In this document: positions 25,523 to 29,263 of the stretch, one piece after another
Layout of the letters: each line of letters starts with the position of its first letter
Numbering within the stretch: position 1 is the stretch's first letter
Source of the DNA: a virus
Length of the DNA: 36,680 nucleotides
IMG/VR virus record: IMGVR_UViG_3300027963_000162
Location: 1 to 36,680 of that record
Strand: one strand, 5' to 3'
Program-made: the position numbers and the translations under genes
Notes under the pieces: model-generated
What the model was told of the DNA's origin: nothing
What the model saw: the letters and a program-made list of their open reading frames with translations, nothing else
Database searches by the model: none

Positions 25523-25681
25523 ATGAAAAAACTAAACTTAATTGCGGCCGCACTTGCCGGCGTTGGATTCGGACTATTGTTTATCGGCGCCGCTGAAAAT
25601 ATTTTCAATTTAACTGAAGTCTTAATCGGCGGCGCCGTATGCTGCGCCGCTTTTGTCTATTCTATAGCGGAGGCGCAATAA
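25523..25681 (+). CDS. 52-aa two-TM small membrane protein
   Basis: The product begins MKKLNLIAAALAGVGFGLLF and has a second hydrophobic stretch (LIGGAVCCAAFVYSIA), with the turn AAENIFNLTE between them. Two short helices with a positively charged start suggest an inner-membrane hairpin protein with both ends inside. GAGGA lies upstream, and the stop overlaps the next ATG (TAATG), so it is coupled to the GP88-like gene. Function unknown; small membrane proteins in early operons can alter host membrane functions or exclude other phages. Confidence 0.65.
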   Translation: MKKLNLIAAALAGVGFGLLFIGAAENIFNLTEVLIGGAVCCAAFVYSIAEAQ

Positions 25682-26325
25682 TGAAAATTTCAGTTACTTC
25701 AAAACTAGACGGCGTGCGCTCTTGGTCACTTGAAGCGCTTGACACTTGCCCAGGATCAATTGCGGCGCCTGGTCAACTAGTTGACGCATGCGCCGGCTGT
25801 TACGCGACGACGGGCAATTATCGTTTTGCCAACGTGAAAGCGCCGCGCGCGCATAACAAAAAAGATTGGCAACGCTTAGCATGGATTGACGATATGGCCC
25901 AGGAACTAGAAAAAGACACGTATTTTCGTTGGTTTGATTCGGGCGACATGTACACGTTAGCGCTTGCCGAAAAGATTCTCGAAGTAATGAAGCGCACGCC
26001 TTGGGTGAAACACTGGATTCCAACGCGCATGTATAAGTTTCCGAAATTTCGCCAGGTATTAACTGACATGCAAGCGCTGAAAAACGTATCCGTGCGCTTT
26101 TCCAGTGATTCTGTAACGGGCGAATATACCAAGGGCTTACACGGTAGCGTGATAGTTCCTACGCCAGGCGACGCAAAGCGCGGCGTCAAATTGTGCGGCG
26201 CTTACGATAACAATGGTCAATGCGGGCCTTGTCGCGCTTGCTACGATAAGCGCGTCAAAGTAATTGCATACCCTGCGCACGGGCGCAAAATGAATAAAGT
26301 AATTATGTTAAAAAAGGCGGCGTGA
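25681..26325 (+). CDS. GP88-like protein with Cys clusters
   Basis: A 214-aa protein starting MKISVTSKLD. An in-frame codon further upstream exists, but this ATG overlaps the previous stop and gives the natural N-terminus. Motifs: TCPGS with Cys23, ACAGCYA with Cys37 and Cys40, YFRWFDSGDM (81-90), HWIPTR (111-116), and a C-terminal zinc-ribbon-like cluster of Cys172, Cys181, Cys184 and Cys187. The N-terminal CPG...C-x-x-CYA plus a central R-x-x-DSGD and a following (Y/I)-x-TR strand is the layout of the phage GP88 family, whose function is unknown. Seven conserved-looking cysteines suggest metal or Fe-S binding. A TIM-barrel, radical-SAM-like fold is a guess only. Confidence 0.65.
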   Translation: MKISVTSKLDGVRSWSLEALDTCPGSIAAPGQLVDACAGCYATTGNYRFANVKAPRAHNKKDWQRLAWIDDMAQELEKDTYFRWFDSGDMYTLALAEKILEVMKRTPWVKHWIPTRMYKFPKFRQVLTDMQALKNVSVRFSSDSVTGEYTKGLHGSVIVPTPGDAKRGVKLCGAYDNNGQCGPCRACYDKRVKVIAYPAHGRKMNKVIMLKKAA

Positions 26326-27145: not shown

Positions 27146-27354
27146 ACTATGACCCTGCAGATAAAGTGAGCACAATTGTCTATACCTTAAACGGTATAAC
27201 GTACTTGCCCCATTACAGGCATGTTAACGCTTACGTAAAACCTGGCTACGGTCGGGCGCACTTTGAAGAGATGAGCGCCGCAGAATTGATCTTTGCGGGC
27301 GCTATAACGTCAACTGAATACTTATTTTCACGTGTAGGGGGCAATAATGGGTAA
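27142..27354 (+). CDS. 70-aa unknown protein
   Basis: Start ATG overlaps the previous stop (ATGA); GAGG lies upstream. The product reads MNYDPADKVSTIVYTLNGIT, then YLPHYRHVNAYVKPGYGRAH, FEEMSAAELIFAGAITSTEY. It is rich in Tyr and polar residues, compact and without hydrophobic segments, so soluble. It overlaps the following gene by 8 bases. No family is recognised. It belongs to the tightly packed early-type operon. Confidence 0.68.
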   Translation: MNYDPADKVSTIVYTLNGITYLPHYRHVNAYVKPGYGRAHFEEMSAAELIFAGAITSTEYLFSRVGGNNG

Positions 27355-27604
27355 ATTAAAAGACATACTGATTGATACCCATCAGTTACATTGGCCGTCT
27401 AATTTAGCAGCCTATGAGTATCATTATGAGAGTGGCGAGTTACTTTGTTTCCTTGACTATACCGCACCCGATAGGGGCGTAGGATATAACGGGAGCGCGT
27501 GGTTAGTGCATGCGTATGCGGGAGGCGTTGACGTCGTCAAGCTCTTGCGCGATGAGATAATCAGAGAGATTGAGGGGTTAGCATGTTCGCGCTTATCGGA
27601 TTGA
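27347..27604 (+). CDS. 85-aa unknown alpha/beta protein
   Basis: The product begins MGKLKDILIDTHQLHWPSNL and has LAAYEYHYESGELLCFLDYT, then GSAWLVHAYAGGVDVVKLLR and DEIIREIEGLACSRLSD. The strand-rich centre followed by one or two C-terminal helices looks like a small folded domain. AGGGGG precedes the start. The 3' end overlaps the 19-aa frame that follows. Function unknown. Confidence 0.68.
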   Translation: MGKLKDILIDTHQLHWPSNLAAYEYHYESGELLCFLDYTAPDRGVGYNGSAWLVHAYAGGVDVVKLLRDEIIREIEGLACSRLSD

Positions 27605-27739: not shown

Positions 27740-27940
27740 TTATGTGCGTTCCATAATCTCATATGCGCGTAAACGCGCGCGTAACTCTGCTATCTCAGCG
27801 TCGCGCTCAGCTAATTTTTTCTGCAAGTGTTCGCTCAGATCGTAAACTGCGGCTAATTTATCAAACCTGGCTTTATGGTCTTCCATCATCATGTTATACA
27901 GGCGCTCTGACGCTTCAATTTGTTTTTGTATAAAGTCCAT
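27740..27940 (-). CDS. 66-aa coiled-coil protein
   Basis: Starts MDFIQKQIEASERLYNMMME and is helical and charged throughout, with heptad-like spacing in LAAVYDLSEHLQKKLAERDA, EIAELRARLRAYEIM. GGGGG lies five bases before its ATG. It is the last gene of the leftward replication operon, behind a hairpin terminator, so it may be transcribed at a reduced level. The likely role is a small oligomeric adaptor or regulator. No family is recognised. Confidence 0.65.
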   Translation of the reverse strand: MDFIQKQIEASERLYNMMMEDHKARFDKLAAVYDLSEHLQKKLAERDAEIAELRARLRAYEIMERT

Positions 27941-27946
27941 GTAACC

Positions 27947-27982
27947 CCCAAAAGAAAAACGCGCCAGATCGTCTCTGGCGCG
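27947..27982 (-). terminator. Intrinsic terminator after the acidic-protein gene
   Basis: On the minus strand CGCGCCAGA-GACGA-TCTGGCGCG forms a perfect 9-bp stem with a 5-nt loop, followed by TTTTTCTTTT. It lies 13 bases beyond the stop of the acidic protein and before the coiled-coil gene. Confidence 0.85.
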
Positions 27983-27994
27983 CTCATGCTGCTA

Positions 27995-28240
27995 TTACTC
28001 TGTTGCGTCTACTTCGTCGTCGCTCTCTTCGTCGTCACAAGCTACGAACTCATCTGCTTCTTCGTCAAAATAGTACGTCACGTTATCGAACGCGTTATAA
28101 AAGAACTCAACGTCGTCTTCTACCCAGAACGCGTTACCGTCCTCGTCATACTCAACGCCATCATCGCACTCATACTCAAACTCTACTACTTCATCGTCGA
28201 TCACGACAACGCTGTTGCCGGTGTAAATTGTGATTGCCAT
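27995..28240 (-). CDS. Extremely acidic 81-aa protein without basic residues
   Basis: 31 of 81 residues are Asp or Glu, and there is not one Lys, Arg or His, giving a net charge near -31. Acidic residues are spread through a beta-like sequence with many aromatics (VVVIDDEVVEFEYECDDGVE, FWVEDDVEFFYNAF, VTYYFDEEADEF) rather than in one poly-acid run, so a folded protein is likely. This is the profile of DNA mimics such as T7 Ocr, which block restriction enzymes or other DNA-binding host proteins. Sequence similarity to a known mimic is not seen. GGAG lies eight bases before the ATG, and a terminator follows the gene. Confidence 0.75.
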   Translation of the reverse strand: MAITIYTGNSVVVIDDEVVEFEYECDDGVEYDEDGNAFWVEDDVEFFYNAFDNVTYYFDEEADEFVACDDEESDDEVDATE

Positions 28241-28257
28241 TTTGATACTCCAAAAGT

Positions 28258-28280
28258 GTTACGGCCACGCCGACCGTAAG
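28258..28280. other. Imperfect hairpin upstream of the acidic-protein gene
   Basis: TTACGG-CCACGCCGA-CCGTAA, a 6-bp perfect stem in the 60-bp gap between the metallophosphoesterase and acidic-protein genes. No long T run follows on the minus strand, so it is at best a weak attenuator. Confidence 0.35.
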
Positions 28281-28300
28281 ATTATTTTATGCGAGAATCA

Positions 28301-29263
28301 TTACACTTGAAAGACATTACCCCGAAAGTAGATCAGACCTTCATCTTCATCTAGCACTTCGCAAAGCTCAGGCGGTAACAGCTTGCCGTTATAGAAAGTA
28401 AGCACTGCAAATCCGCTTCTATGGTTTTTGGCATTGTCTTCTGCATAACTAAATTGTTGACCGTTGACGTCCGCTAGTGACCCAGTATCGACTCCGTAGC
28501 GCGTGCCATTGTAATCGGTGAAGGGCGTACATTTTAAGGAGTGCAGATGGCCAGTGACAATTGAGGTGCCAGCCTTAAGAGTGTTGTTATAAATAGCATG
28601 AATTCCGTTATGCCATCTATGTTTAATCATGCAATTACCATTAACCATGACCGATGTTGAGAATTTCCAGCGAGGAAAATGGTCGGTCAGGTTCATACCC
28701 ATGATGCCCTTAAAACCCTCACCTACTTGCGCGCACAACCTAGCATTAAAGCGCTGATCGTGATTGCCCCACGTCCAATGCAGCTTACTATTAAGCGAAG
28801 CCGCTTCGATCTCAGACAGGCGCTCTTGGCATGCTTCAAGTTCTTGCTTAACACTGGGTGTGGCTTCCCAAGTGCCGCCAGGCGGATGGCGACTAATTGA
28901 TGCACCGTCGAAAACGTCACCGTTCATTACAATCGCTTTAGGCTTTAGTTCTTTGGCAAACAGCACGAACGCGCGGTGCGCGGTTGATACAATGCCAGGC
29001 CAGTAGTGACAGTCACTAGCAACCATAATGCTGCCGCTATGAAGCTCAAAATTAACGCGCACACCGTTTTCAGGTATCAAGATTTTAAAATCAGGACTGC
29101 GCGGACTTGCTGCATTCAGAATGGTACCGTGATTGGCCTCTATCGTACGACGCCGCGCGTTAATAGCACGAACGGTTAACCCTGTTTCATTAGCCATGTC
29201 AGTTGCTGACTGTAACCGACGCCACGTCGCAATAAAATCCTCATCAGATATTTTAGTGCCCAT
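28301..29263 (-). CDS. Calcineurin-type metallophosphoesterase with N-terminal HTH-like part
   Basis: A 320-aa phosphoesterase with all the family's metal motifs: D-x-H at Asp84/His86, GD at Gly115/Asp116, GNHD at 166-169, His214 in IKHRWH and GHLH at 238-241. Residues 1-45 (WRRLQSATDMANETGLTVRA, INARRR) look like a helix-turn-helix, an unusual addition, so it may act on or near DNA. Related enzymes in phages are thought to cut nucleic acid or cyclic nucleotides, but the substrate cannot be read from sequence. A TATAAC -10 box at 29280-29275 and AGGGG before the ATG suggest it can be expressed independently of the upstream primase gene. Confidence 0.87.
   Translation of the reverse strand: MGTKISDEDFIATWRRLQSATDMANETGLTVRAINARRRTIEANHGTILNAASPRSPDFKILIPENGVRVNFELHSGSIMVASDCHYWPGIVSTAHRAFVLFAKELKPKAIVMNGDVFDGASISRHPPGGTWEATPSVKQELEACQERLSEIEAASLNSKLHWTWGNHDQRFNARLCAQVGEGFKGIMGMNLTDHFPRWKFSTSVMVNGNCMIKHRWHNGIHAIYNNTLKAGTSIVTGHLHSLKCTPFTDYNGTRYGVDTGSLADVNGQQFSYAEDNAKNHRSGFAVLTFYNGKLLPPELCEVLDEDEGLIYFRGNVFQV

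Follow-up and report, generated by a model that had tools for sequence, protein, structure and literature searches.

A mobile, self-contained phage cassette carrying a new family of strongly acidic proteins

A small and extremely acidic phage gene belongs to a new protein family and is carried as a moron-like mobile cassette, with its own predicted promoter, leader stem-loop, ribosome site and terminator, and is not a conserved virion gene. This self-contained cassette and the new family are the stronger result of our analysis. The acidity had been described correctly in a first-pass annotation of the same DNA, and its interpretation there as DNA mimicry is plausible but unproven.

The gene was found in the window, that is, the whole stretch of DNA analysed, an IMG/VR virus record of 36,680 bases. 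Besides a P22-type portal and a head/tail region, the record encodes a DNA polymerase, a primase, an exonuclease and a terminase; the lake-water phage DSL-LC05 has a terminase 73.5% identical to it. The ORF, for which no strand had been given, lies on the minus strand, where it runs from 28240 to 27995 and encodes a protein of 81 residues. A recount gave 16 D, 15 E, and no K, R or H, reproducing the 31 acidic and zero basic residues reported earlier. Its net acidic fraction is 0.34, against 0.13 for the next-highest among all stop-to-stop frames of the window. The ORF is a real gene under purifying selection, with pairwise dN/dS values of 0.03-0.11 among the window and three close homologues (L001, L002 and L003); the same comparison gave 0.06-0.09 for the adjacent metallophosphoesterase gene.

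The acidic gene sits near the boundary between replication and packaging genes, flanked by this metallophosphoesterase gene (28301..29263, minus strand) and by a gene for a coiled-coil-like protein of 66 aa, CC66 (27740..27940, minus strand), an order that is kept in L001-L003. Four named phages, Microcystis phage Mvi-Yong1342-1 among them, carry relatives of the metallophosphoesterase, 35-48% identical, in different gene contexts and without an acidic neighbour. CC66, a small and strongly conserved protein, is 58-92% identical among different phage contigs and varies in position, lying beside the acidic gene, beside a head gene, or alone; it is adjacent to or near the acidic gene in many members and absent from others, and a filtered tblastn search against named phages returned no match to it. 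Further along, an 85-aa ORF (27347-27604, plus strand) is conserved at 78-82% identity in L001 and L002 and at 55% in L051, with no match in Pfam or PHROG, and the plus-strand genes clustered between the terminase and the acidic gene include an ORF (25639-26325) that matches the Pfam family GP88 (gene product 88).

Searches by protein and, at a later stage, by promoter motif gathered 52 distinct homologues from IMG/VR contigs, with lengths of 58-114 aa, 38-51% D/E, and 0-2 K/R. Because dN/dS is low and these 52 relatives hold their acidity, the protein appears selected for it and is no accident of composition. The family shares a core, [ED]xDEDGx[AI]Wxx[DE] followed by YY[FY]D and then DDWxE, which is present once or, in some members, twice in tandem. 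The window protein departs from the family by an insertion of eight residues within this core, and L051, from the same phage clade, has the shorter canonical core and bridges the window protein to the wider family. One candidate member, L052, was a chance match within a large non-acidic ORF resembling a tail fibre and was discarded.

No Pfam, PHROG or PDB family matched the acidic proteins above threshold, the sole Pfam hit of the window protein being unrelated and sub-threshold. Filtered tblastn with the window protein and a homologue against named phages gave no match, a search in which the low-complexity filter may mask relatives, and the hits of a blastn search with homologue DNA against phages were confined to short runs of acidic codons within unrelated genes. 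No relative came out of two scans of bacterial and archaeal genomes, a weak result since confirmation relied on one member. In BFVD, three proteins of uncultured Caudovirales phages (A0A6J7WIK2, A0A6J5NEZ6 and A0A6J7WGB1) match at 40-44% identity over 43-62 aligned columns and have a similar predicted fold; these are bare database entries without a function and by appearance belong to the family. The OCRE and WW domains (PF17780 and PF00397) share an aromatic-rich beta-meander pattern with it, and membership was rejected for both, the best E-value for OCRE being 0.01 (3 of 19 members, sub-threshold) and that for WW 0.3 in one member, below the curated cut-off. With no significant structural match, the resemblance is likely a convergence of short aromatic beta-repeats.

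Signals for separate expression, with a predicted promoter among them, can be read around the window gene on the minus strand. A predicted -10 box, TAAAAT (28284..28289), found at the same place in homologues, is preceded 16 nt upstream by a weak -35-like hexamer, TTCAAG (28306..28311), which lies within the end of the metallophosphoesterase gene; TTCAAG matches TTGACA weakly, and the close relatives L002 and L003 have TTGAAG. The leader stem-loop, TTACGGTC-ggcgt-GGCCGTAA (28259..28279), begins 4 nt past the predicted -10 and ends 18 nt before the ATG, and a Shine-Dalgarno sequence, GGAG (28248..28251), is read directly 7 nt before the ATG. Nine nucleotides past the stop codon lies an intrinsic terminator (27957..27985), a GC-rich hairpin with a 12-bp stem and a T-rich tail, confirming the terminator that had been noted for this gene.

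The arrangement extends well beyond the single terminator from which separate control had been proposed, since a promoter-like box, a leader stem-loop and a terminator accompany nearly every homologue. The upstream DNA of the homologues aligns as a T-rich -35 region, TTGT[AC]A, an extended -10 (TGTAGnAT or TATAAT), the stem-loop, the ribosome site, and the ATG. In 51 of 52 members a script that took loose boxes placed a -10-like box a few bases before the leader stem; 51 of the 52 leaders contain the stem itself, and a terminator follows 49 of the 51 members for which downstream sequence exists. Compared with 283 control ORFs from the same loci, and counting stems at a score of 11 or more, a terminator followed 96% of 50 testable family genes and 14% of controls; leader stem and terminator together were found for 94% of the 50 and 8% of controls, although the family genes are related and the 94% does not stand for 50 independent events. 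Pairing in the leader stem holds in 99.1% of cells and drops to 12-60% in slid-partner controls; in one pair both sides have changed (3 cells). In the window clade, a stem of unrelated sequence (TTACGG...CCGTAA) occupies the same position.

The promoter motif, which is predicted, was also able to find the family. A first combined promoter-plus-leader pattern, in which the spacing was wrong, retrieved nothing among the loci. Among the loci fetched before the blind scan, a related motif occurred upstream of acidic genes only, with one chance exception (L067). When IMG/VR was scanned blind for the promoter motif and nothing else, 90 matches could be read, and in 29 of them the motif leads by way of a leader stem to an acidic member, in many cases one too diverged for protein search. 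The other matches were without such a leader, except for L123 and L138, in which the leader is present and the contig ends soon after the start codon. In E. coli, mRNA can gain stability from a stem-loop at its 5' end (Emory, Bouvet and Belasco 1992, as cited in PMC3997798).

The genomic position of the cassette varies among phages. In those with genomes of about 60 kb it follows the major capsid gene, as identified by PHROGs, either directly or past one small gene (L012, L008, L027, L034, L036 and L021), and in L012, L021 and L036 it splits the capsid gene from a homologue of the cement protein gene of phage DSL-LC04. Capsid and cement genes adjoin in DSL-LC04, CRP-901 and Pag-Yong1 (OR003939, OQ401623 and OL906435), and none of the regions fetched from eight named relatives contained such an acidic ORF. 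In the window, L004/L014 and L031, the cassette lies instead in replication or terminase regions, beside a metallophosphoesterase gene in the window and L004/L014. For the window's own site, the nearest named phages contain no acidic ORF, though no clean empty site was seen among them. G+C content does not depart from that of the genome in the window (0.474 versus 0.479) and does so in L036 (0.377 versus 0.469) and L034 (0.398 versus 0.451). An HNH endonuclease gene, assigned by a PHROG match in L008 (6162-6515, minus strand), is convergent to the cassette, and similar ORFs occur in L012, L021, L027 and L034; it is perhaps linked to the entry of the cassette at the capsid site.

We call the cassette moron-like because it has its own terminator, lies in L012, L021 and L036 between genes that adjoin in relatives, and occupies differing genomic sites. 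A described counterpart is pid of phage P22, a late-region moron with its own terminator that encodes a host-acting protein of 86 aa and is missing from related phages, or replaced there by another insert (PMC3573128). The likeness lies in pid being an independently regulated ORFan that ends in a Rho-independent terminator and sits in the late region of a phage with P22-type head genes; a difference is that Pid triggers expression of the host dgo operon (PMC3573128). The likeness is one of description, with no homology claimed. Such a distribution suits a host-takeover or counter-defence protein.

The earlier description of the protein as beta-rich is supported by two AlphaFold2 models, confident in the core alone, which contain beta strands and no helix at moderate confidence. 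For the window protein (mean pLDDT 57.5), the model shows a four-stranded meander at residues 37-67, with block means of 66-74, a core pLDDT of about 72, and disordered ends. For the compact homologue L034, modelled with 30 sequences (mean pLDDT 68.8), it shows an N-terminal hairpin and a three-stranded aromatic core, with the best core blocks at pLDDT 83-85 and the DEDG motif in a hairpin turn. Prediction thus gives the protein an aromatic beta-meander, acidic turns and disordered acidic tails, so that a disordered chain, which had been named as an outcome that would speak against mimicry, is predicted for the tails and not for the core. Foldseek and VIA-align found no significant match in the PDB to the family models. 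Weak hits were set aside: PAS-domain entries of the PDB found by phmmer (chance, E of 0.026 and worse), beta-propeller blades matching the second model (Z under 3, reflecting only the common meander), and a type I-F anti-CRISPR chain (E of 9.4 over 22 columns). In a sequence test for strand-like alternation of acids, which would have spoken for a DNA-like spacing of the charges, the window protein was not significant (p = 0.14), and the family showed only a trend (mean z of 1.0).

The proposed kinship with Ocr did not hold up, as neither the protein nor its profile matched Ocr in the PDB or reached the cut-off in Pfam or PHROG; more generally, known DNA mimics and anti-defence proteins gave no match in sequence or fold. 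Ocr (gene 0.3 of phage T7) is likewise a small, extremely acidic, separately expressed phage protein, with 34 acidic and 6 basic residues in 116 aa, about 16 of the acidic residues being needed (PMC4872106). It is, however, a mainly alpha-helical dimer, whereas the acidic protein is predicted to be beta, has no basic residue, and exceeds Ocr in charge density. The large acidic excess typical of DNA mimics is found both in the window protein (31 of 81 residues) and throughout the family. Conserved acidity, a predicted beta-rich aromatic core, separate expression control and moron-like spread partly support the mimicry and anti-defence reading of the first-pass annotation, from which the kinship to Ocr falls away. 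Given the charge density and its conservation, the separate and probably strong expression, and the moron-like distribution, we infer that nucleic-acid mimicry, for example in anti-defence, is the likeliest function. Two observations weigh the other way. No known mimic matches the protein, and both the D and G of the DEDG turn and the Trp and Tyr of the strands are strictly conserved, which suggests a specific fold or contact beyond charge.

The explanation that we put first, and hold tentatively, is that the acidic protein is the cargo of a self-contained moron-like cassette and acts as a stoichiometric occupant of a basic nucleic-acid-binding surface of the host. A unit of promoter, leader stem-loop, ribosome site, one small acidic ORF and terminator would transfer among unrelated phage genomes and would be transcribed on its own into a one-gene mRNA that is probably both stable and abundant. 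The protein, with aromatic strands, D/E clusters at every turn and disordered acidic tails, would most likely block the basic nucleic-acid-binding surface of a host protein stoichiometrically, a mode of action that may be likened to that of DNA-mimic anti-restriction and anti-nuclease proteins. A stoichiometric inhibitor would fit with expression that is separate and probably strong. It is possible, if on balance doubtful, that the members form a new widespread family of phage nucleic-acid mimics, built as an acidic-aromatic beta-meander with a duplicable repeat that lengthens the charged surface, and carried among unrelated aquatic phages, as a cassette with promoter, leader hairpin and terminator, against host defences.

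An unlikely variant is that the protein is a host-directed regulator binding RNA polymerase, a sigma factor, HU or an H-NS-like protein, and serves takeover rather than anti-defence, which is a sub-case of nucleic-acid mimicry with another target. Acidic phage proteins that target transcription or nucleoid proteins are known in general, and an independent host-type promoter would permit early expression. The precedent of pid, a late-region moron that switches on a host operon (PMC3573128), points in the same direction, but the loci have no conserved neighbouring regulator or partner.

The position behind the capsid gene, shared by two capsid groups that are only about 35-42% identical, might instead indicate a virion or capsid-assembly accessory protein, binding for example the capsid, the scaffold or ejected proteins, with a promoter of its own for dose. 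We consider this distinctly unlikely: cultured relatives with an identical order of capsid, GroES and cement genes are without the acidic gene, the gene lies remote from the capsid gene in the window, L004/L014 and L031, and a private promoter and terminator would be unusual within a late operon. A defined role in virions had been named beforehand as evidence against mimicry, and the missing cassette at the same site in cultured relatives argues against such a role.

That the protein is a small metal (Ca2+)-binding protein is improbable. The motif [ED]xDEDGxxWxx[DE] fits the 12-residue spacing of a calcium loop, which we compared at ligand positions 1, 3, 5 and 12 and at Gly6, and Dx[DN]xDG motifs serve as calcium-binding sites in a range of folds, among them EF-hands (PMC3123361). 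Position 3 is Asp in 52 of 52 members, position 5 is D in 51 of 52 and Gly6 is present in 52 of 52, as the search pattern partly demanded; position 12, which it did not demand, is acidic in all 52. Nevertheless, position 1 is usually Glu (35 of 52) rather than Asp (17 of 52), an acid would often be expected at any given position in proteins with 43% acidic residues, and the second repeat often has no calcium-like motif. Moreover, the L034 model puts DEDG in a beta-hairpin turn, where a type I turn with a glycine bulge would account for D and G without metal, so that a predicted beta turn explains the motif more simply than a calcium loop. Finally, an obligate partnership with CC66, which lies within about 3.5 kb of the acidic gene in most loci, is highly improbable and was rejected as the main reading, since CC66 was not found in the whole acidic-gene records L008, L031, L035 and L036 (by a search with no positive control in those records), occurs without the acidic gene in records such as L060, and is nearly neutral (14 D/E and 12 K/R).

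The cassette recurs as a unit in otherwise different freshwater-type phage genomes, an arrangement often seen for phage helper proteins such as those that inhibit host defences. If the acidic protein does mimic DNA, it would be a mimic of another kind than the helical Ocr, one in which the repeat can be extended and the expression unit is conserved. The promoter-leader motif can itself be searched for, and offers a practical route to further members of a low-complexity family that standard filtered BLAST missed. Whatever the function of the protein, the cassette is a clean case of a mobile phage unit that carries one gene and turns up in more than one genomic setting.
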